Assembly: GCF_010500245.1 (NCBI RefSeq) | Contig: NZ_JAAGOX010000022.1 | Coordinates: 434,001-498,000 of the forward strand | DNA length: 64,000 nucleotides | Direction: 5' to 3' | Source: Ruegeria sp. PrR005 | GTDB lineage: Bacteria > Pseudomonadota > Alphaproteobacteria > Rhodobacterales > Rhodobacteraceae | In this document: in pieces, positions 2,693 through 14,192 of the stretch | Position numbering within the stretch: the stretch's first letter is position 1 | Layout: every line of letters begins with the position of its first letter | Notes under the pieces: model-generated | The model's database searches: none | Seen by the model: the letters and a program-made list of their open reading frames with translations, nothing else | What the model was told of the DNA's origin: nothing | Program-made: the position numbers and the translations under genes

Positions 2693-2734
2693 TGCCATAT
2701 CTAGGGCATGCATTTGACCCAAAAGGATAAAGCC

Positions 2735-3814
2735 ATGTCTGATACAGCGTTCGAGGCAATGATCCTGGAAACGCAGCGCAAGGTGCGCGAGAGCCAGGCC
2801 CAGATCGAGGGCGTGACCAGCCGGATCGAGGCGGCGCGGGCCAAGATCGAAACCGGCGAGGCCGATATCGACATCGAGAACGCCACGTTGGAAGACGTGC
2901 ATGCCCATACCGAGGTGATGAACGCCAATATCGCCGAACTGATCATGGGGCTTGACGATGTGACATCGGCCTTTTCCAAGGATTTCGACGAGATGCGCTC
3001 GAAAACCGGATGGGAGAGCTTTGTCGGCATCTTCTCCAGCGGCAAGTCGGAATCGATGCGGCAGGAACGGATGCGCACCGCCAACATCGACGACAAGTTG
3101 CAGGATCTGATCGCCAAATCCGATGTGATCGTCAAGCTGCTCGAAGGGCAGTTGGCGGTGCTGGAAGAGCAGCGCACCAAGGTGGAAACCAACCTGACGG
3201 GCACATTGGACGACCGCGAGGCGACGGTTGCGGCATTGGAAGCGGTGCGGGCCGAGATCCTTGCCATGGATCCGCAGATCATTGCGCTGGAAAACAAGAT
3301 CAGCGTCGAACAGGACGCCGCCGCGCGCACCAAGCTGGAAACCGAACTGGCCGAGCTGAACAAGGCCTATAATGCCAAGGTGCGCGACGAGCAGGTGAAA
3401 CTGGCCAAGAGCCAGACGCTGGAGCGCTACATCGAAAAGGGCAAGACCTGGGTGGATTCGCTGCAAAACCAGGCAGCGACCCAGATGGTGCTGATCAACA
3501 AGTTGCAAACGGATACGCAGCAGCGCGTGGTGCTCTATGACGCGCTGACCAAGTCGCTGAAAACCGCGCAGCAGCAGGACGTTGCCCACCGCATCAACGA
3601 GATCGGCGTGCAGACCGACCAGGAAGCACAGACCGCCATGGCCGCCATCGGCACCGCGACCAACCAGAAAATGGCCGACATGCTTGAGGCGCACGAGGAT
3701 CACATGGTCTTTGCCCGCGACGTGCTGGAGAAGAAGGCCAAGGCCGATGAGCGCTTTGCCCGCCGCTTCGCCGCGATCGTCGAGAAGCACGACAAGAACC
3801 TGTATGGGGGCTGA
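2735..3814 (+). CDS. Predicted coiled-coil protein, first gene of an uncharacterised AAA+ cluster
   Basis: A soluble, highly charged 359-residue protein with no signal peptide or membrane helix. Long helical heptad-like stretches cover about residues 10-75, 130-250 and 290-355, rich in Glu, Lys, Gln and Ala; the only less helical part is around TGWESFVGIFSSGKSES. The overall look (long coiled coils, repeated Gln/Asn) loosely recalls TelA-type toxic-anion-resistance proteins, but I cannot confirm homology. I chose ATG 2735 because AAAAGGA lies 8 bases upstream; the ATG at 2708 has no binding site. The next gene begins 2 bases after this stop, so they are co-translated. A structural or scaffold partner of the ATPase two genes downstream is inferred from context. 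Confidence 0.7.
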   Translation: MSDTAFEAMILETQRKVRESQAQIEGVTSRIEAARAKIETGEADIDIENATLEDVHAHTEVMNANIAELIMGLDDVTSAFSKDFDEMRSKTGWESFVGIFSSGKSESMRQERMRTANIDDKLQDLIAKSDVIVKLLEGQLAVLEEQRTKVETNLTGTLDDREATVAALEAVRAEILAMDPQIIALENKISVEQDAAARTKLETELAELNKAYNAKVRDEQVKLAKSQTLERYIEKGKTWVDSLQNQAATQMVLINKLQTDTQQRVVLYDALTKSLKTAQQQDVAHRINEIGVQTDQEAQTAMAAIGTATNQKMADMLEAHEDHMVFARDVLEKKAKADERFARRFAAIVEKHDKNLYGG

Positions 3815-3816
3815 TC

Positions 3817-4935
3817 TTGGCCGACCCCGCCCACGACCATGTCGGCCTGACTGACACATTCGCCTCGCGCCGGTATTTCCGCAAGTTCGAGACGATCACC
3901 ACCCATCTGCTGCGGGTGGCCGCCAACATGGAGGCCGAGGGCGCGATCAGCCGCGATGAGGTGCGGATTATCTCGCGCTATATCTCGGGGCTGCTGTTCA
4001 CCTTTCGCGCGCTCAGCATGAAATACCTGCTGGTTGGGCGCGATACGGGTCGGTTTTTTGGCTCGCTCAGCATGGACAAGCGCGACAGCGGCTTTCCGGT
4101 GGCGGCCGAGCTGATGACCATGGCCAACGATGCCCAGCAGGCGGCCAGCCATCTGGCCAACATGCCCTCCGAGGCGGCGCTGAAGGACGAGATGGTCCAG
4201 ACTATCCTCGGCAGTCGCGAGATCCCGACCAAACTGCAATTCGCCCTGTCACAGCGGCTCTATTACGGGGAACTGGCCCGGGGGCAACTGTTTTGGGTGC
4301 GCAACGACCCCGAATGCCACTGGATTTCGACCGAGGGCGACCGGCGCCGGTTCCTGCTGCATTGGGCGGTTTATGACAGCCAGATTAACCTGCCAGTGAT
4401 CTATCTGATGCGGCTGGAGGATACCGGAAAACAGGCGCTGCCCAAGGACAGCCGCCGCTGGCCCGAGGTACAGGCGCATCTGATGGCGCAGTCGCTGGCA
4501 GGGCTGAAGCTGTTGACCATCGCCAAGGGGTTTGACGAGGATTTCGACGACCTGCACCCCAAGCATCTGCGCCGTATCCATGTCGGGCCGATGTATTCCT
4601 CGGCTTTTACCGAACAAACCGGCCCGCTGCGGGCGGTGCTGGAGGATGCGCAGGCGCCTGCCGGTCAGGACTGGGCGCTGGCCTGGACCAGCGAGGAACT
4701 GGAAAGCGAGGACGTGCGTGCGGAACGCTCGGGCTGGTTCGGCACGGTCGAGCGCGAAATCTTTGCCCTCGACCCGTTTGGCGGGCAGGGAGCCGAGACC
4801 GGGGCCACGCGCACCAGCCGGTCGATCATCCTGCCGCAGCGCCCGTTCCAGGTGCTGGCCGAACGCAATCCGCCGGGGTTTACGGATGTGCGCAAGTTCG
4901 TGGTGAGCGAGGGCGGGCAGGTGGTGCGATATTGA
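3817..4935 (+). CDS. Uncharacterised protein of the AAA+ cluster
   Basis: I do not recognise this 372-residue protein. It is soluble-looking, with no signal peptide or clear membrane segment, a mostly helical N-terminal half (ISRDEVRIISRYISGLLFTFRALSMKYL) and a mixed C-terminal half. It uses a TTG start at 3817, two bases after the upstream stop, with GGGGG 6 bases ahead of it. The start is decided by that spacing and by the absence of an upstream alternative outside the preceding gene. Its place between a coiled-coil protein and an AAA+ ATPase in the same operon suggests it works in the same complex; that is inference. A gap of about 67 bases with a terminator-like repeat separates it from the ATPase gene. 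Confidence 0.7.
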   Translation: MADPAHDHVGLTDTFASRRYFRKFETITTHLLRVAANMEAEGAISRDEVRIISRYISGLLFTFRALSMKYLLVGRDTGRFFGSLSMDKRDSGFPVAAELMTMANDAQQAASHLANMPSEAALKDEMVQTILGSREIPTKLQFALSQRLYYGELARGQLFWVRNDPECHWISTEGDRRRFLLHWAVYDSQINLPVIYLMRLEDTGKQALPKDSRRWPEVQAHLMAQSLAGLKLLTIAKGFDEDFDDLHPKHLRRIHVGPMYSSAFTEQTGPLRAVLEDAQAPAGQDWALAWTSEELESEDVRAERSGWFGTVEREIFALDPFGGQGAETGATRTSRSIILPQRPFQVLAERNPPGFTDVRKFVVSEGGQVVRY

Positions 4936-4953
4936 TTGGCCCTGCCGGGCCAA

Positions 4954-4987
4954 GCCTCCGGCGGGAGTATTTTGAGCGAAGTGAAGA
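4954..4987 (+). repeat. Intergenic repeat with mini-hairpin, copy 1
   Basis: GCCTCCGGCGGGAGTATTTT followed by GAGCGAAGTGAAGA. CTCC and GGAG form a short stem followed by TATTTT, so it resembles a weak intrinsic terminator. A near-identical copy lies at 28895-28927 and a diverged one at 24630-24662, all in the same orientation relative to the following gene. Here it sits inside the AAA+ cluster, just ahead of the ATPase gene. Confidence 0.6.
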
Positions 4988-5002
4988 CAGGGGCGTTGTG
5001 AC

Positions 5003-6940
5003 ATGAGCCTGACATCGGACCAGATGGAACTGCGTGAAGAGGCGATCCGCGCGCATTACCCGGCTGCGACCGCGCTGCTGGACGGGTTCGACCATGCGCC
5101 ACGGGTGGCGCAGGCGCGGACCCCCGCCAGGGCGGAGGAGCGCTCGCCCGGCATTCCAACGGCGCGGCGGTTCCGTTCGACCACGCCCGGTCTGGTGACG
5201 CGGCGCAGCACCCGGCCTGATGGGGTGCATCTGCGCGAACGGATCGAGGCGGCGGACGATGGCGACACGCTGGTCTCGCCGGTGCAGGCCACGGTGGCGC
5301 ATGCGATCCGCCGGGCGCTGGCCATCGCGCTGGCAATGGGCGAGGGTTATGGCGACCGCACGCCGCTGGGCGATCTGAAACGCGCCAATCTGGCGGGCGA
5401 CCTGCCGGCGGCGCGCAAGGGCGAGTTCTCCGAACTGCTGACCGCCGAGGCTTTGGTTGTCTCTCATGTGTTCGGCAATGCGCTGGCCTATCTCTTGTCG
5501 CCGCATCTGGGCGCAACCTCGGTCGAGGTGGGCGAGGTCGAGGAATTCCTGACCGACAACGCGCAACTGGCGCTGCATGGCGCGCTGTGGGATCTGGACC
5601 AGAAGCTGGAAAGCTTCGCGAGCGACGACGCGCAGCTGATCGCCACCACCGCCGGTTTTGCCGAACAATTGATGGCAAAGGCCGCCGCGCGCGCACAAGG
5701 CGCCGGGCATCTGGGGCCCTTTGCCGGGGCCGCTTGGCATGTCGAGGCCGATGACCTGACCCTGCGCGGCTTTACTCCGGCGGCCAAGGCGCGCTCGACC
5801 AAGCTGACCATGACGTTCAAGAAACCGAACGAGGTGGTCGGCAACCATATCGCCAAGTATCAGGCCATGAAGCTGGCCAAGATGCTGATGGCCTATGATT
5901 TCGAGCGCCGCCTGAACCCGTTCGCGGAACTCGGCGGCTTCATCTTCACCTTCATGGGTGACGGCAAACCGGGCACCGGCAAGACGACGCTGATCCAGAT
6001 GATGGCGGGGCTGATCGACGAATATTGCCGCAACGCCGGCTATCCTTTCCGCTATCAGAATTTCGGCATCGACAATATCGACAGCTATCAGGGCAAGTCG
6101 GGCCAGAACGCCAAGGCCTTTGTCCAGAACGTACTCGACCCCGGCGTGATCGGGTTTGGCACCATCGACGATATCGACCAGATCGCGGGCAAGCGTGGCG
6201 ACCGCCAGTCGAGCGCGGGCCAGCAGGAGGTGACGGCGGTATTCATGGAGGCTTTTGCCGGTGCCAATACGGTGGTGCGCGGCAATTGCACCTTTGGCAT
6301 GTTCTCGAACTATCCCGAGAATGTCGACGACGCCCTGCGCCAGCGGGCGGGCGCGCGGTTCCTGGTCGACGGGCCGCAGTCGCGCGAGGATTACATCGAC
6401 ATCCTGGCCCTGCTCTTGGGCAAGCGCCACGATATCCCGCTGGGCGACCATGACCTCTATGCCGCGCAAGAGATCAAGCGCGCGGTGGCCGCCAGTTTCG
6501 CCGCCCATGGCCGCCCGCAAGAGGCCGGGCTGGCGCAGGTGTGGGAGAGGGTGGGGGCGCAGGTCGGCCCGCTCGACACCATCGCCAAGCTGGGGACTTA
6601 TCTGAAGGGGATACAGGAGGCCGACGAACGCTTCACCGGTCGCGCGATCAAGAACATCACCGACGCGGTCAAGGTGCGGGCGATGGATTTCGAATTGCCC
6701 GATGAATGGATGGAAAAACCCGACCTGTTCCTGTTCCGCGACTATGATGAAAAGCTGGCGATGATCGAGGAGCTGCGCAAGCCCATCACGGTGGACATGG
6801 TGGTGCAAGAGATCAACCGCTATGCGGACAGCGAGTTCCGCTATGCCGACAAGTCGGACGAGGTGGCCATCGATGGCATGGTGCGCGAGATGGGGCGGAT
6901 GGAAGAGGCGAAGAAGCGGTATCTGGAGGGGAAGGGGTGA
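5003..6940 (+). CDS. AAA+ family ATPase of uncharacterised cluster
   Basis: A 645-residue protein with a long helical N-terminal region (about 1-300) of no recognised family and a C-terminal AAA+ module. The Walker A motif GKPGTGKTT is at residues 321-329. The likely Walker B is IGFGTIDDID at 383-392, ending in Asp-Asp-Ile-Asp instead of the usual Asp-Glu, so catalytic details may differ from canonical AAA+ proteins. A conserved-looking segment GQQEVTAVFMEAFAG (about 407-420) and NYPENVDDALRQRAGARF (arginine-finger-like) follow. The order is consistent with MoxR- or GvpN-like remodelling ATPases, but I cannot place it more precisely. Start ATG 5003 has only a weak binding site. The stop overlaps the GTG start of the next gene by 4 bases. 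ATPase activity is inferred. Confidence 0.85.
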   Translation: MSLTSDQMELREEAIRAHYPAATALLDGFDHAPRVAQARTPARAEERSPGIPTARRFRSTTPGLVTRRSTRPDGVHLRERIEAADDGDTLVSPVQATVAHAIRRALAIALAMGEGYGDRTPLGDLKRANLAGDLPAARKGEFSELLTAEALVVSHVFGNALAYLLSPHLGATSVEVGEVEEFLTDNAQLALHGALWDLDQKLESFASDDAQLIATTAGFAEQLMAKAAARAQGAGHLGPFAGAAWHVEADDLTLRGFTPAAKARSTKLTMTFKKPNEVVGNHIAKYQAMKLAKMLMAYDFERRLNPFAELGGFIFTFMGDGKPGTGKTTLIQMMAGLIDEYCRNAGYPFRYQNFGIDNIDSYQGKSGQNAKAFVQNVLDPGVIGFGTIDDIDQIAGKRGDRQSSAGQQEVTAVFMEAFAGANTVVRGNCTFGMFSNYPENVDDALRQRAGARFLVDGPQSREDYIDILALLLGKRHDIPLGDHDLYAAQEIKRAVAASFAAHGRPQEAGLAQVWERVGAQVGPLDTIAKLGTYLKGIQEADERFTGRAIKNITDAVKVRAMDFELPDEWMEKPDLFLFRDYDEKLAMIEELRKPITVDMVVQEINRYADSEFRYADKSDEVAIDGMVREMGRMEEAKKRYLEGKG

Positions 6941-7530
6941 TTTACATTGCTATAATTTTTTTGTTTTTTGCCATTCTTGCTATCACTCCTCCGCTTTTAG
7001 TGGTTCTCAGTGATTTTGAGGGAGGGTTTTTTGAAAAAATCGAAGAATTTATTTCGGTTTACGATGGCACCCTAATAGCACTAGGAACGCTTTTCTTAGT
7101 TTCGCTCCTTGCTATCCTCACCACGCATTTATCAAATGTTGCCGCCGATCGTAGAGAAAGAAGCAACCGGAGAATACAAGCCGAGTTAAAACTGTCGGAC
7201 TTTCGTCAACTATGGATTAATGAACTTCGAATCGACTTGGCCGTGTACATGGCAGAGGTAAGGTTTAGGAAAAATAGAGAGGATCTCTCTCGCTTAGAAG
7301 AAGTGTCGACAAGAATTTTTTTGCGTCTCAATCAAAATGAAGAGGATGCGTTCAAGCTGGGTGGAATGATTGCCAAACTCGTCAGGGTAGTTCGTGCTGA
7401 GAATTATGATGAAGAAGATGAAATCGTTAGTGAGATACTGAGATTGAGTAGAGTAGTATTGAAGAAAGAATGGGAGCGCTTGAAGAGTGACTTGAGAACG
7501 GCTCAAGTCGACAATAGCGAGCTGACATGA
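6937..7530 (+). CDS. AT-rich two-helix membrane protein inserted in the AAA+ cluster
   Basis: A 197-residue protein of unknown function with two predicted membrane helices (about residues 2-25 and 44-64) followed by a charged, helical cytoplasmic tail with the segment IFLRLNQNEEDAFKL, a pattern I have seen in small accessory membrane proteins. Its base composition is plainly AT-rich, with T/A-rich third positions and poly-T runs, unlike every neighbour. Yet it begins with a GTG overlapping the ATPase stop (GTGA) and ends with a TGA overlapping the next ATG (ATGA), so it is tightly coupled on both sides. This suggests horizontal acquisition as a block or a fast-evolving specificity component. 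Function is unknown; the coding call is strong. Confidence 0.8.
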   Translation: MIYIAIIFLFFAILAITPPLLVVLSDFEGGFFEKIEEFISVYDGTLIALGTLFLVSLLAILTTHLSNVAADRRERSNRRIQAELKLSDFRQLWINELRIDLAVYMAEVRFRKNREDLSRLEEVSTRIFLRLNQNEEDAFKLGGMIAKLVRVVRAENYDEEDEIVSEILRLSRVVLKKEWERLKSDLRTAQVDNSELT

Positions 7531-8876
7531 TCCGCCTCATCCAATCCGGCCTGATGTTCGGCAATCTTGTGCATATCTCCAGCCCGGCGCTGGTGGAGCG
7601 GTATAATCGCGCGCTCCAGCATCTGGCGGGCAAGACCACGGCGCTCACCGATTTCCATATCGACATCTCGGGTTATTCGCCCGAGATCGGGGACGAGCTG
7701 GGCGATCCGCTCTACCTCAACCCCAACGGGGTCAACCGGCAGTTCATCCTGCTGACGCCCGAGCAGAAGCGCGCGCCGCTCTTGAACGTGAAATTCTCGA
7801 CCTCGCGTCCGATCCTGCGCGAGTTCATCGAGGCGAACGAGGCGCAGCTGTTTGCGCTGACCGCCACCGACGCGGTGGCGGGCGAACTGGTGAACTCGGT
7901 CTTCAAGCTGCGCTCGCCCGCCGACCTTTTCACCCTGCGCAAAATCGAGATCGAGGCCGACACCGTCGGCGGCACGCTGAAAAACGCGGACAAGCTGGCG
8001 GCGATGATCGAGCGGTTCAAGACCGAAAACGACGCCTGGTTCGACGACGTGCTGATTGCCGAGATGATCGGCATCTCGAAGCAGACCGGCGATATCAGCC
8101 GCAACCCCGTGCATCTGAGCCACAAGGCGCACGAGCAGCGCAATTTCTGGACGGCGCATTTCGGCGGGCTCTACCTGTTCCCCGATGTGGAGCACCCGGC
8201 GATGATCTGCGTGGGCGAGAAACCTCGCGAAGAGATGCCGGTGAAATACGTTCTGGACCTCGGCGAGCGCAACCGGATTGCCAAGTTCCTCGATTTCAAC
8301 AAGTTGGCCGAACCCATTGTGCGGGCGCGCGGCATGGATGCGGCGGCGGTGCTGCGGCAAAAGATGGATTTCATTGTGATCGACACTGCCGCCGGTACCG
8401 GGCTGAACCCGGCGGGGCTGGACCAGGGCGACATCCGGCGGCTGGCGCGGATGCATGCCGACCGGCTGCCCGAGGAATATCACGGGCTGGCGCAACTGGC
8501 GCGCTGGGCCGAGAATGGCGGCGACTGGCCCCGCATCTCGGCCGATCATCCTGCCTATTTCTATGGTCTGCGGGCCGCCGACACGCCCGACCGCGACCTG
8601 GTCAACATGTTGCTGGCGGAACTGGCGCCGCTGGATGCCCGCCAGCTCTTCATTTGTCACAAGGAGCTGTTCTATCGCCTCTATGTGACCTGGCCCGAGG
8701 CCAAACGGGCCTTTGTTGCCGATTTCCTCGCGCGCGAGTATCAGGTGGACAAGGCGGGCGCGCGGACGGCATTGTTCGGGCACGAGCCGGACATGAGCGG
8801 AGCGCAAAGCCCCGCGCAGGCGGATGAACGCCTGATCGAACGGGTCGGCCCCTGGGGCGCAATACGGAGGCGATAG
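7527..8876 (+). CDS. Uncharacterised protein of the AAA+ cluster (possibly DUF6638)
   Basis: A soluble 449-residue protein without signal peptide or membrane helices. From memory it resembles a Rhodobacteraceae family catalogued as DUF6638, but I cannot verify that. It has normal high-GC codon use, unlike the gene just upstream whose stop overlaps its ATG. Visible features are mixed alpha/beta composition, a His-rich segment NPVHLSHKAHEQRNFWTAHFGG around residue 195-215, and a helical C-terminus. It is followed within two bases by the GTG of a small membrane protein gene, so all are probably one transcript. Role inferred only as a partner of the ATPase. Confidence 0.7.
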   Translation: MIRLIQSGLMFGNLVHISSPALVERYNRALQHLAGKTTALTDFHIDISGYSPEIGDELGDPLYLNPNGVNRQFILLTPEQKRAPLLNVKFSTSRPILREFIEANEAQLFALTATDAVAGELVNSVFKLRSPADLFTLRKIEIEADTVGGTLKNADKLAAMIERFKTENDAWFDDVLIAEMIGISKQTGDISRNPVHLSHKAHEQRNFWTAHFGGLYLFPDVEHPAMICVGEKPREEMPVKYVLDLGERNRIAKFLDFNKLAEPIVRARGMDAAAVLRQKMDFIVIDTAAGTGLNPAGLDQGDIRRLARMHADRLPEEYHGLAQLARWAENGGDWPRISADHPAYFYGLRAADTPDRDLVNMLLAELAPLDARQLFICHKELFYRLYVTWPEAKRAFVADFLAREYQVDKAGARTALFGHEPDMSGAQSPAQADERLIERVGPWGAIRRR

Positions 8877-9154: not shown

Positions 9155-9799
9155 ATGCGCTATGTCAAATGGGTGATCATCGGGCTGTTCTGGCTCAGCG
9201 TCGCCGCCTTCCTGCACTATACCCTGCCGCAGCGCGACATCGTGCGCATCGTCAATACTTATGAGGAACGGCAGGAGTTGAACGACTGGACCCGCATCTT
9301 CTGGTCTCGGCCCGACGATCAGTCGGTGAACATCATCAACCGCGATGTGCAATTCATTCAGGGCGTGACGCCCGAAGGCCGCCCGCGTGTCTATCGCAAT
9401 GAGGATACCAGCTGGAGTTGGCCGCCCTACTTCAAGTTCGACACCGCCAATCTCTATACCGAGGCGAATGACGCGATCTCGTCCAAGGATAAACCCGAAT
9501 GGATGGCGGTGACCCATTATGGCTGGCGCAACGAGTTTCTGTCGATCTTTCCCAACGCGGTGGCGATCAAGCCGGTGGCGGGGCCGGACGTGCGCTTGAT
9601 CCCCTGGTTCAACATCATTGTTCTTACCCTGTTGGCGGCGCTGTTCTGGGCGATCTGGGTGCGCTGGCGCCGGTTCCGCGAGGCGCGCATCGACCCGGTG
9701 ATCGAGGATGTCGAAGACAGCCTCTATGCTGCCGGCGAGGCGATCGAGGAACGGCGCGGCCGGCTCCGGCGCTGGCTCGACAGCTGGAAGTCGAAATAG
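9155..9799 (+). CDS. DUF1523 family membrane protein
   Basis: A 214-residue protein with an N-terminal membrane anchor (about residues 5-23), a periplasmic domain of about 130 residues, a second membrane helix (about 150-170, IPWFNIIVLTLLAALFWAIW) and a basic cytoplasmic tail. The signature FLHYTLPQRDIVRIVNT, RVYRNEDTSWSWPPYFKFD and VTHYGWRNEFLSIFPNAVA matches DUF1523, a Rhodobacterales family of unknown function. It is the last gene of the 2735-9799 run, 10 bases after the small membrane protein. Its conserved periplasmic domain could sense or bind something on behalf of the ATPase system, but this is speculative. Confidence 0.85.
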   Translation: MRYVKWVIIGLFWLSVAAFLHYTLPQRDIVRIVNTYEERQELNDWTRIFWSRPDDQSVNIINRDVQFIQGVTPEGRPRVYRNEDTSWSWPPYFKFDTANLYTEANDAISSKDKPEWMAVTHYGWRNEFLSIFPNAVAIKPVAGPDVRLIPWFNIIVLTLLAALFWAIWVRWRRFREARIDPVIEDVEDSLYAAGEAIEERRGRLRRWLDSWKSK

Positions 9800-12030: not shown

Positions 12031-12849
12031 ATGGGTTTCCCCGGCACGTGGATGACGGAAAGTGAAAGTGTGGTCTATCGGGTGGTGCCGAAATGCGCCT
12101 GCTCGACCATCGGGCAGATCATGTATTACTCGGATCACGGCACGTTCTTCGATGGCGACATCCATGATGCCCAGCAAGGGCTGCACAAATGGGCGCTCGA
12201 GGCCAGCCAGGGTCCGATCAAGCGCAACGTGAAGGCCCATAAGTCCTATGCCTTCACCTGTGTGCGCAACCCGTACACGCGGATCCTCAGTTCATTCTTC
12301 GACAAGATCTGCGGCATTCAGCGCAATGGCAAACGCTATCGCGGCAATCTGGTTCCAACGCTGGTCTACAAATACGGGGTCGAGGTCGGCGGCGAGGACG
12401 GCAAGCAGGAGTTTGACCAGATCGCCAGCTTCCGCCGGTTCCTGCTGTTTGCGCGCGACACCATCCGCTGGCGGCGACCGATGGACCCGGACATTCACTG
12501 GTCAGCCATGTCGGGCCATATCTCGACCTTTATCTGCAACGGCGGGCGCTACGACAAGATCTTCTGGACCGAGGCGTTCAACGACGGCATGCAGGAGGTG
12601 CTCGACAATATCGAGACGCCGCACAAGGTCAGGCTCGACAAGATCCCGCGCTTCAACGAAAGCGAGGGGCACGGGCCGAAGCGGCTGCATCCGGTCGAGG
12701 ACTATTTCGACGACCTGTCGAAGCATCTTGTCTATGAAATCTACAAACGCGATTTCGACCTGTTCAAATACGATTTCGAAAACCCGGGCAACAAGATGCC
12801 AATCAACGAGATCGATCTGGACGAAGTGCACGCCAAACTGGGCGAATAA
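12031..12849 (+). CDS. Sulfotransferase family protein
   Basis: A 272-residue member of the carbohydrate/protein sulfotransferase family, which transfers sulfate from PAPS to hydroxyl groups, usually of glycans. The 5'-phosphosulfate loop is VPKCACSTI near residues 18-26, and the 3'-phosphate motif is FTCVRNPYTRILSSFFDK near 75-92. Both motifs are intact. Start ATG 12031 is supported by AGGAGG 8 bases upstream. There is no signal peptide, so it probably acts in the cytoplasm on precursors. It stands divergent from the branching glycosyltransferase, with which it may be co-regulated and act on the same polymer. Acceptor unknown. Confidence 0.85.
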   Translation: MGFPGTWMTESESVVYRVVPKCACSTIGQIMYYSDHGTFFDGDIHDAQQGLHKWALEASQGPIKRNVKAHKSYAFTCVRNPYTRILSSFFDKICGIQRNGKRYRGNLVPTLVYKYGVEVGGEDGKQEFDQIASFRRFLLFARDTIRWRRPMDPDIHWSAMSGHISTFICNGGRYDKIFWTEAFNDGMQEVLDNIETPHKVRLDKIPRFNESEGHGPKRLHPVEDYFDDLSKHLVYEIYKRDFDLFKYDFENPGNKMPINEIDLDEVHAKLGE

Positions 12850-12866
12850 TGCGAAACGGCCCGCCC

Positions 12867-13421
12867 CTAGACCTGGGGCGCGGGTCTTTCCGCCAGCATC
12901 AGAAGCTCGGTTACTACCCCGTCCAGCTCCGCCGCGTTCAGCCTGCGGCGCAGGCTGCTGCCCAGATAGCAATCATAGATCAGGTGCGCCTTGCGGCGGG
13001 CCACCGGGGATTTGTGGCCAATCGCGCCAAGAAGATCGGTCAGAAAACCGATGCGCCGGGCGTCAATCTCGTCGACCGCGTCGCGGGCCAGCACCTCACT
13101 CTGGGCCCAGAACCGCATCGGCCATTCCAGGCTTTCCGGCTGACCGAACGCGGTGCGAAACAGGGTTTCCAGCGCCGCGCGCGGATCGGTCGTGTTTTGC
13201 AGATCGGCGATGATCCGGTTGGTCGCCACATGCTTCCAGCGGGCGATCACGGCGGCATGGAAATCGGCCACGTTTTCGAAGTGATAGTAGAAACTGCCGC
13301 GTGTCATCCCCTGCGCCCGCGATAGCTGATCGGCCTTCAGTGCCACATAACCTTGCTGCGCCAGCGTCTCCAATCCGATCTCGACCCATCGTTCGGCGGA
13401 GAGTCTCGTACTGCGGGCCAT
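12867..13421 (-). CDS. TetR/AcrR family transcriptional regulator
   Basis: A 184-residue TetR-type repressor. The N-terminal helix-turn-helix is about residues 9-55, with the typical TRGSFYYHFENVADFHAAVI recognition helix and following residues. The remainder is the helical ligand-binding domain, whose ligand cannot be predicted. Start ATG 13421 is preceded by AGGAG at 7 bases. It is divergent from a pyridoxamine-phosphate-oxidase-like gene, and two ATACA-N4-TGTAT palindromes lie between them. These are the obvious binding sites and imply autoregulation plus control of the divergent gene. Confidence 0.9.
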   Translation of the reverse strand: MARSTRLSAERWVEIGLETLAQQGYVALKADQLSRAQGMTRGSFYYHFENVADFHAAVIARWKHVATNRIIADLQNTTDPRAALETLFRTAFGQPESLEWPMRFWAQSEVLARDAVDEIDARRIGFLTDLLGAIGHKSPVARRKAHLIYDCYLGSSLRRRLNAAELDGVVTELLMLAERPAPQV

Positions 13422-13439
13422 GGCACGCTCCTGGTTTAC

Positions 13440-13453
13440 ATACAGTTGTGTAT
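13440..13453. promoter_or_regulatory. TetR operator candidate, site 1
   Basis: ATACAGTTGTGTAT (ATACA-N4-TGTAT). It lies about 20 bases upstream of the TetR start codon. A second copy at 13485-13498 is in inverted orientation, and the flanks match as well (ACATACAGTTGTGTATTT against AAATACATAACTGTATGT). Confidence 0.6.
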
Positions 13454-13484
13454 TTACACTGCGGTATCGGTGTGACTAAGTAAA

Positions 13485-13498
13485 ATACATAACTGTAT
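13485..13498. promoter_or_regulatory. TetR operator candidate, site 2
   Basis: ATACATAACTGTAT (ATACA-N4-TGTAT), an inverted copy of the site at 13440-13453, 45 bases apart centre to centre. It lies about 56 bases before the divergent oxidase start, so the two sites flank the shared promoter region. Confidence 0.6.
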
Positions 13499-13553
13499 GT
13501 TGGCGAGTCGCCATACGGCCGGCATCTCGTCCCATGATCGAAGGAAGCCCCGA

Positions 13554-13973
13554 ATGACCGATATCCAGGAACGAATCCGCGCCTTGGCCCCCGGCCTGCA
13601 ACTTGTCTCGCTGGCCACAACGACCGAGACCGGCGCCCCCTGGGTGCGTTTTGTCGCGGGCCGGATGATGCCCGACCTGTCGATCTGGTTCAGCACCCAT
13701 CTGAGCTCGCGCAAGATCGCTCAATTGCGACGTGATCCGCAGGTACATGCCACTTTGGGTGCCACGGATTTCACCGCGCAGGAATGGCTTCAGCTCGCGG
13801 GGCGGGCCGAGATCTCGACCGCGCAGAGCGACCGCGAGGCCTTTTGGTTCGATGGGCTGCTGGCCTATGTCAGTGGCGTTGACGATCCCGAATATGCCGT
13901 GGTCAAGGTGATCCCCGACCGGATCGAGATTGGGGCGATGGGGCGGGCGCCGTTGGTCTGGCGGGCAGGCTAA
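13554..13973 (+). CDS. Pyridoxamine 5'-phosphate oxidase family protein (FMN-binding split barrel)
   Basis: A 139-residue split-barrel flavoprotein-type protein. LVSLATTTETGAPWVRFVAGRM and IWFSTHLSSRKIAQLRRDPQVHATL are characteristic of the pyridoxamine-phosphate-oxidase-like / general stress protein 26 family, which bind FMN or haem-like cofactors. The precise reaction cannot be predicted. Start ATG 13554 has AAGGAAG about 7 bases upstream; a longer reading to 13497 would run into the operator. It is divergent from the TetR gene and is the likely regulated target. Confidence 0.8.
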   Translation: MTDIQERIRALAPGLQLVSLATTTETGAPWVRFVAGRMMPDLSIWFSTHLSSRKIAQLRRDPQVHATLGATDFTAQEWLQLAGRAEISTAQSDREAFWFDGLLAYVSGVDDPEYAVVKVIPDRIEIGAMGRAPLVWRAG

Positions 13974-14046
13974 TTTACCTAGATTGCCGGGGCAATTGCT
14001 CTGCGCTTTTGCAGTTTTGCGAAGGCGCTGAGAGAGACCAGAGAGC

Positions 14047-14192
14047 GGGGCGCTCCCGCCCGTCGTCGACGTTTCTGGCGAAACATCTCCTCCCGTTGGG
14101 CCGGGCGCCGCGCCATAGGCGCGGCGCCCGGCCCAACCCCGCAAGGGGGTCCGGCGTCAGCTGGGGACATGCAGCGGGGGCGGGAGTGTCCC
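14047..14192. repeat. GC-rich nested inverted repeats in gene-free gap
   Basis: The 234-bp gap between the oxidase and ilvD stops contains a perfect 20-bp inverted repeat with a 3-base loop (14095-14114 / 14118-14137, loop ATA). It is enclosed by outer arms GGGGCGCTCCCGCCC (14047-14061) and GGGCGGGAGTGTCCC (14178-14192). It lacks a T-tract. The 18-base word TTGGGCCGGGCGCCGCGC recurs at 56600-56617, so this is a dispersed element as well as a possible bidirectional stop for the two converging transcripts. Confidence 0.6.

Follow-up and report, generated by a model that had tools for sequence, protein, structure and literature searches.

In a conserved operon of the Rhodobacteraceae, the junction where an AAA ATPase gene meets the DUF6638 gene is, with near certainty, an exchangeable slot, a result obtained by comparison across species and without pairs of strains from the same species. 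In the window, the stretch of 64,000 nucleotides from Ruegeria sp. PrR005 that was analysed, this junction (slot C) holds one AT-rich gene, while in about 100 other genomes it holds unrelated genes, stacked genes or nothing. The footprints left at the junction make it highly probable, by inference, that contents are exchanged through recombination in the flanking genes. A joint reading, in which a cassette slot in the operon is reloaded by recombination in its flanks, provides a built-in start for its guests and carries guests with a putative defence role, is held with moderate confidence.

The conserved operon

The slot lies within a conserved cluster encoding a coiled-coil-like protein (g368), a second core protein (g372), the ATPase, DUF6638 and DUF1523 (Table 1).

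Table 1. Features of the conserved operon and its slots in the window.
Feature	Position	Strand	Basis
g368, core protein of 368 aa, conserved and coiled-coil-like; borders slot A upstream	2708..3814	+	
Slot A (g368/g372 junction), empty in the window	3815..3816	+	
g372, conserved core protein, 372 aa	3817..4935	+	
Slot B (g372/ATPase junction), without a cassette in the window	4936..5002	+	
AAA ATPase of 645 aa; borders slot C upstream	5003..6940	+	Pfam AAA, E 3.1e-11
Docking end: ATPase codons YLEGKG and stop, then the overlapping GTG start and TGA	6920..6940	+	
Slot C cassette of the window genome, 197 aa, AT-rich	6937..7530	+	ORF, composition, structure model, family alignment A1
DUF6638 protein of 449 aa; borders slot C downstream	7527..8876	+	Pfam PF20343, E 1.3e-231
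Small gene, about 88 aa	8878..9144	+	By-eye reading of the DNA, five loci
DUF1523 protein of 214 aa; last gene of the conserved cluster as examined	9155..9799	+	Pfam PF07509, E 1.7e-72

The core proteins gave few leads to a function. The score of g368 against EAD9 was 24.6 bits, just under the 25-bit cut-off, and g372 belonged to no Pfam or NCBIfam family and had no sequence match in the PDB at E ≤ 1. Matches of the ATPase were weak, to AAA-protease-like and fidgetin-like proteins in the PDB and to TRIP13 in PADLOC (E 8.3e-5). A structure model of DUF6638 (mean pLDDT 81.7) matched no solved fold at E ≤ 0.001, and a profile of the protein found only two PDB sequences, both at E about 0.4, so the attempt to derive the function of the core from structure was dropped. 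DUF6638 was present in 38 of 121 near relatives (window genome counted); of 289 genomes from the class, 5 scored above the cut-off (controls, 0/14). A literature search by name returned nothing for DUF6638 and nothing for putAbiC, a domain found among the slot C guests (see below).

An AT-rich gene fitted into slot C

The gene in slot C of the window differs sharply in composition from its surroundings, as the initial annotation had it when it placed an AT-rich gene between high-GC neighbours (GC 0.414 and GC3 0.409, compared to GC3 of 0.82–0.84 for five core genes). Crude gene calling over 464 kb of the same genome gave 382 genes (mean GC 0.634, SD 0.033); of these, the slot C gene was alone in having a GC content <0.47, was one of two at or below its own GC3 value, and had the lowest codon-adaptation-like score (0.384 vs 0.672 ± 0.087; 1/380, itself). 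It was also the only call overlapping same-strand neighbours at both ends. These calls came from a crude longest-ORF caller that short AT-rich genes may escape. The two overlaps lie exactly where they had been placed, with the GTG start of the 197-codon ORF overlapping the ATPase stop in GTGA (6937–6940) and its TGA overlapping the ATG of the DUF6638 gene in ATGA (7527–7530). The alignment to the nearest relative is broken at 6935 and restored at 7527. In most of 77 aligned loci the DUF6638 start codon is followed by A, such that the ATGA comes mostly from the downstream gene; because that gene largely supplies it, a cassette has no need for a stop codon of its own.

The encoded protein was modelled as all-helical (mean pLDDT 83.5) and has two hydrophobic N-terminal stretches, as judged by eye. 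It had no Pfam, NCBIfam or PADLOC match at the limits used, and no profile match to putAbiC or AbiP, and neither solved nor viral structures matched its fold at E ≤ 0.001. Profile comparison gave probabilities of 0.7% for kinship with the putAbiC-linked family and about 0.7% for kinship with that of locus L012, and both relations were rejected. An origin as a recent phage gene was likewise discarded, as the protein was unmatched in 50,697 phage records and the viral fold models gave nothing at that limit; a search of 72,556 plasmid records returned two weak matches. The family has 11 members in slot C among the sampled loci that were clustered, and occurs in six other genomes among 295 drawn from the taxonomic family, three times in slot C itself and three times without the ATPase or DUF6638 within ~1.5 kb.

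Slot content across relatives

A search baited with DUF6638 confirmed 347 genome stretches, from which the best 80 were retained, and 76 of these 80 also carried the ATPase; adding further relatives of the window genome gave 106 rows of junction distances. Four duplicate records (L081, L097, L098 and L111) are still contained in the junction-distance counts and were excluded from the clustering onwards. Loci without an ATPase in the stretch (L045, L047, L055, L057, L103 and L104) were left out, L050 is absent from the ATPase tree (no full ATPase) and L148 from the DUF6638 alignment (wrong ORF frame).

The length of slot C ranged from −4 to 2,177 bp (median, 666.5 bp; 106 rows), the lower end being direct overlap of the ATPase and DUF6638 genes (e.g., the empty slot of L071, −4 bp). 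The distance between the DUF6638 and DUF1523 genes was steady (273–452 bp in 81/81 rows); this junction is not a slot, and the operon as a whole is thus not loose. The g368/g372 junction (slot A) is a second slot with a repertoire of its own: its length varied from −4 to 1,165 bp (104 rows), with g368 duplicated in tandem in the two longest cases (L084 and L002). In many relatives it is filled by small cassettes that apparently encode membrane proteins. The g372/ATPase junction (slot B) is an occasional third, with a lipoprotein-like or other small ORF in a minority of relatives.

Plus-strand ORFs of at least 55 aa in the slots (n = 209) formed 112 clusters, with 53 clusters from 93 loci in slot C, 50 from 73 in slot A and 9 from 12 in slot B. 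Singletons are counted here and, given the crude ORF caller, include some spurious GC-rich ORFs. Among the sampled loci, none of the 27 multi-member clusters was common to two of the slots A, B and C, and a single mobile element as the source of all slot contents was rejected on this ground. One of these 27 clusters is the duplicated core gene g368 and no cassette. Slot C ORFs of at least 90 aa lay predominantly on the plus strand (107 plus, 12 minus), and 96 of the 107 plus-strand cassettes had a lower GC content than the ATPase gene of their host.

Variation was evident even at close range. Within the genus group of the window, made up of five genomes including that of the window (DUF6638 identity ≥93%), slot C holds the window family, putAbiC-linked genes (L001 and L003) or 124 bp without a cassette (L002), and in L082 it holds two stacked small genes. 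This excludes a conserved core gene in slot C. The initial annotation had proposed aligning the same locus in related strains and had named as its refutation a conserved AT-rich homologue in all relatives; across the relatives aligned here the position was taken up by different genes, several genes or none, and its suggestion of a rapidly exchanged component is supported, with a role of that component in specificity remaining conjecture. One mark of a hotspot, conserved flanks with contents that differ between genomes, is therefore met.

Turnover relative to the flanking genes

Slot C content is nearly, not wholly, independent of the ancestry of its flanks. When mapped onto a tree built from the ATPases of 101 loci, labels seen at least twice (68 loci, 11 states, with 'empty' as one) required 41 changes, compared to a mean of 44.6 (range, 40–48) when labels were shuffled; 6 of 200 shuffles fell at or below 41, so a slight phylogenetic signal remains. 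Pairs of loci at a distance <0.05 shared a label in 23 of 164 cases ('empty' counted as a label), and a second mark of a hotspot, content turning over faster than the flanks diverge, is met as well.

Over the 64 kb, the window and its nearest relative were 93.1% identical with three breaks >150 bp, among which slot C alone has several hundred differing bases on both sides (42% GC on the window side). Identity in the ATPase flank stayed high to the last codons in L002 and was somewhat lower over the last 200 bp of the gene in L001, L003 and L082 (83–91% per 100 bp). As a control, a more distant relative (86.3%) showed 13 breaks >150 bp over the same 64 kb, and at several of these the content had been replaced. 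The sequence around position 12,848 was changed in two of the four relatives compared. Slot C is not the sole changeable place in the region.

These observations bear on whether the slot has any functional tie to the operon. It could instead be a permissive landing site that tolerates any short co-directional gene, where ready-made translation and conserved flanks ease the settling of foreign genes, an explanation considered unlikely. It would account for the many unrelated kinds of cassette, most of those scanned being without a known family, and for changes at other nearby junctions in the more distant relative; the orientation bias, moreover, could reflect mere selection against blocking DUF6638. 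The constancy of the adjoining DUF6638–DUF1523 junction speaks against it, as does an apparent bias of the cassettes to membrane proteins (by eye). The slot-specific families count against it too, although exchange bound to the flanks could alone produce them.

Evidence for recombination in the flanks

Pieces of the flanking genes were found inside some slots. In a scan of 100 C slots and 84 A slots >30 bp, flank remnants occurred in five of the C slots, as a second ATPase tail before a later cassette (L029, L039, L041 and L082, in the last of which it separates the two stacked genes) or as a DUF6638 head (L079). Slot A contained pieces of the g372 head (L014 and L024) and a weak piece of the g368 tail (L014). 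Mid-gene peptides of the flanking genes, of which three served as controls, had no match inside the slots. The expectation of the initial annotation that ordinary insertion leaves a scar thus holds, as far as remnants are visible, for this minority of C slots.

Cassettes were in places more alike than the genes beside them. Of 25 near pairs, listed only where cassette identity reached 78% or more, 9 had cassettes more alike than their ATPases and the other 16 did not. L021 and L023 have three slot C genes in common at 96–98% (ATPase, 89.4%), and L021 and L022 a slot A gene at 99.1% (ATPase, 91.0%); the slots of L021 are thus shared with different relatives, since slot C matches L023 and slot A matches L022. 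Taken together, the remnants and the cassettes exceeding their flanks in identity support recombination in the flanks, and with it the replacement by recombination in conserved flanking sequence that the annotation had offered as an explanation.

Delivery of cassettes by a gene transfer agent is a tentative inference. The window genome has two above-cut-off matches to TIGR02218, which we take to be a gene-transfer-agent-like family. All measured slots are shorter than the pieces of about 4.5 kb that the gene transfer agent of the order carries for allelic replacement, as described (PMC9690577).

A probable start signal within the ATPase gene

The tail of the ATPase gene may also serve its neighbour. 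In the window, GGAGGGG lies at 6925–6931 inside this tail, with GGAGG 7 nt before the GTG, and across 77 aligned loci the ATPase ends mostly in YLEGKG or a variant of it. A Shine-Dalgarno (SD)-like motif was present in the last 24 nt of the ATPase gene in 86 of 102 loci, compared to 588 of 7,919 control 24-mers from the same genes. Because its last codons carry this motif, a guest would find a ready start site; the motif is seen in the sequence, and its effect on translation is inferred. In 67 of 86 loci the first cassette of at least 90 aa begins at most 2 nt past the ATPase stop, the last such cassette ends at exactly −4 in 54 of 86, and slots with a single cassette are seamless at both ends in 35 of 68 cases. 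The window is a clean example of an arrangement that is frequent and not universal.

Identity of the guests

A Pfam and PADLOC census was made of 100 cassettes chosen from the 209 that were clustered, leaving out 9 of 59 representatives from slots A and B. The largest slot C cluster (22 loci) had 19 full-length members scanned, of which four carried a putAbiC domain (E ≤ 0.01; best E 1.3e-19); an AbiP match was also found. Calling the whole cluster AbiC would be too strong, as the tie is the N-terminal half: by BLAST, N-terminal halves were linked in 171 of 171 pairs and C-terminal halves in 15 of 171. In L001 and L003, approximately the first 80 residues are 70–100% identical, and past about residue 100 identity is at most 25% per block of 20 columns. 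This family consists of a constant N-terminal and an exchangeable C-terminal half, with remote similarity between the C-terminal halves remaining possible.

Other guests with recognisable domains include one cluster of Mrr-type restriction enzymes (L027, L036 and L039; matches in L027 and L039, with Mrr_cat at 1.7e-32 in L027), a slot C guest in L085 with AbiJ_NTD4, the N-terminal domain of AbiJ, and, in slot A, a DUF4279 protein and a Phd/YefM antitoxin. Most other scanned guests were small, apparently membrane-bound (by eye) and without a family. Recognisable defence domains thus make up a minority of the scanned cassettes, with no background rate for comparison. Defence as the main function of the cargo, inferred from this minority and without data on protection, remains a serious possibility that falls somewhat short of an even chance. 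By the same inference the guests, the membrane-anchored-looking one of the window included, are most likely defence effectors, though that one has no family match itself.

The apparent abundance of membrane proteins is compatible with another role, in which the AAA ATPase works with the cassettes as swappable adaptors, or acts on them as substrates, and the core is a machine for remodelling membrane proteins, with targets that are not necessarily phage. The coupling of the cassette genes to the ATPase gene fits such a role, as do the weak AAA-protease-like and fidgetin-like matches of the ATPase and the constant N-terminal and variable C-terminal halves of the commonest family. Still, an adaptor function is not obvious for the Mrr nuclease, AbiJ and putAbiC guests, and the occurrence of empty slots (L071) means that no adaptor is essential; this role is considered improbable.

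The stacked cassettes with flank remnants between them and the constant-N, variable-C proteins also resemble the layout of contact-dependent inhibition (CDI) and Rhs loci (PMC4927057), and slot A contributes the DUF4279 protein and the antitoxin. The operon could accordingly be read as a polymorphic locus where kin swap toxins or immunity proteins in the manner of orphan CDI or Rhs tips. Such loci would be expected to have constant N-terminal and exchangeable C-terminal parts, which is met in the largest slot C family only, and a secreted carrier with a paired immunity gene, which is not: the nine genes scanned included neither a large carrier nor a module for secretion or delivery, and just one slot C cassette of at least 90 aa, rather than a pair, is present in 68 of 86 loci. 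A toxin and immunity locus is regarded as highly improbable.

Discussion

The reading preferred here, an exchangeable cassette slot with defence guests, would operate as follows. DNA from a relative would recombine in the conserved 3′ end of the ATPase gene and the 5′ end of the DUF6638 gene, replacing the content between them. The SD-like stretch in the last codons of the ATPase would then serve the guest, which would need no start signals of its own; the ATPase stop would supply or abut its start codon, and the ATGA of DUF6638 would supply its stop and couple translation onwards. Sometimes a new cassette may stack beside the old one with a flank piece left between them, as seen in a few loci. 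The g368/g372 slot may be reloaded similarly, given the same variability and remnants and its own repertoire, both of which were observed. A plausible vehicle would be the gene transfer agent of the order, with its allelic replacement of about 4.5 kb, and the guests would most likely be defence effectors.

A more far-reaching proposal, which is doubtful, is a modular immune machine in which the core of coiled-coil protein, g372, ATPase and DUF6638 uses membrane-anchored effectors from slots A, B and C. Each slot would have its own repertoire of families and a start site in its upstream gene, and would be reloaded independently by allelic replacement of the size carried by gene transfer agents, including swaps of C-terminal halves. 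That the core works together with the guests is an inference.

Integron gene cassettes are promoterless and co-directional, sit at a fixed site and are expressed from outside. Slot guests are like them in being co-directional at a fixed site and, presumably, promoterless and expressed from outside; unlike integron cassettes, the flank remnants at the slots point to homologous recombination. Some slot C guests match Pfam or PADLOC models of the putAbiC, AbiP and AbiJ abortive-infection families, whereas the cassette of the window is itself unmatched.

The closest known systems are defence hotspots at core genes and CDI or Rhs loci. Pseudomonas aeruginosa has the core defence hotspots cDHS1 and cDHS2, with median contents of 26 kb and 6 kb (PMC10250203), and defence islands between core genes have been described in E. 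coli (PMC10121019). The slots share with such hotspots conserved flanks, highly variable content and recognisable anti-phage genes among many unknown ones. They differ in measuring 0–2.2 kb and lying inside one operon, mostly on one strand; in addition, start and stop codons of guests and flanks often overlap, and the gene upstream contains an SD-like sequence. With CDI and Rhs (PMC4927057) they have in common the exchange of variable modules beside a constant one, the retention of a homologous piece of flank by displaced modules, and constant-N, variable-C proteins. Unlike CDI and Rhs, they show no large secreted carrier among the genes scanned and have mostly single guests, not toxin–immunity pairs; what is repeated as flank is the 3′ end of the AAA ATPase gene, which itself stays intact.

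What is distinctive is an arrangement that is in-operon, often codon-tight and mostly co-directional, with multiple slots holding separate repertoires and guest start signals inside a conserved gene. No description of operon gene ends that act at once as coding sequence, recombination arm and guest start signal was found in the titles and beginnings of abstracts covered, a search that did not extend to full texts.

The slot looks like a cartridge holder reloaded by recombination in marine Roseobacter-type bacteria, an expression-ready cassette slot, perhaps for defence effectors, with the defence function being inferred. If this is true, the slots would be an address book for undiscovered defence genes, and one fixed junction in the Rhodobacteraceae would yield dozens of new, mostly single-gene candidates for testing. 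The slots would also be a natural read-out of allelic replacement (e.g., by gene transfer agents) in wild marine bacteria, because each swap puts a new cassette between conserved arms.

Additional variable sites in and near the operon

The junction between the core genes g368 and g372 (slot A) is a second variable slot, without a guest gene in the window; in the same operon of relatives (loci with L numbers), the slot A genes were small, mostly AT-rich, and apparently membrane-bound. In L049, the 156-aa ORF that overlaps a Phd/YefM antitoxin gene in this slot had no Pfam match, and the two possibly form a toxin-antitoxin pair. A third slot, between g372 and the ATPase gene (slot B), was seldom occupied and held lipoprotein-like ORFs, with those of L031, L051, L052, and L105 falling in one cluster. 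The g368 core gene had a second tandem copy in L002 and L084, and the content of L002 and L003 differed from the window at another changeable place.

Coordinates of sites and ORFs
Feature	Locus	Position	Strand	Remark
Slot A	window	3814-3817		
Phd/YefM antitoxin gene overlapped by 156-aa ORF	L049	4379-5033	+	slot A
424-aa ORF, opposite strand, in longest slot	L079	8522-9796	-	next to DUF6638 head remnant
Changeable place	window	~12848-14050		

Slot C between the ATPase and DUF6638 genes

Among close relatives (L001, L003, L010, L024, and L034), the slot C proteins shared largely identical N-terminal halves, with C-terminal halves that appeared unrelated. GC-rich palindrome-like repeats, which look like dispersed intergenic repeats, occurred in slot C of L002, L044, L058, and L082, either filling empty or near-empty slots or placed after the last guest gene.
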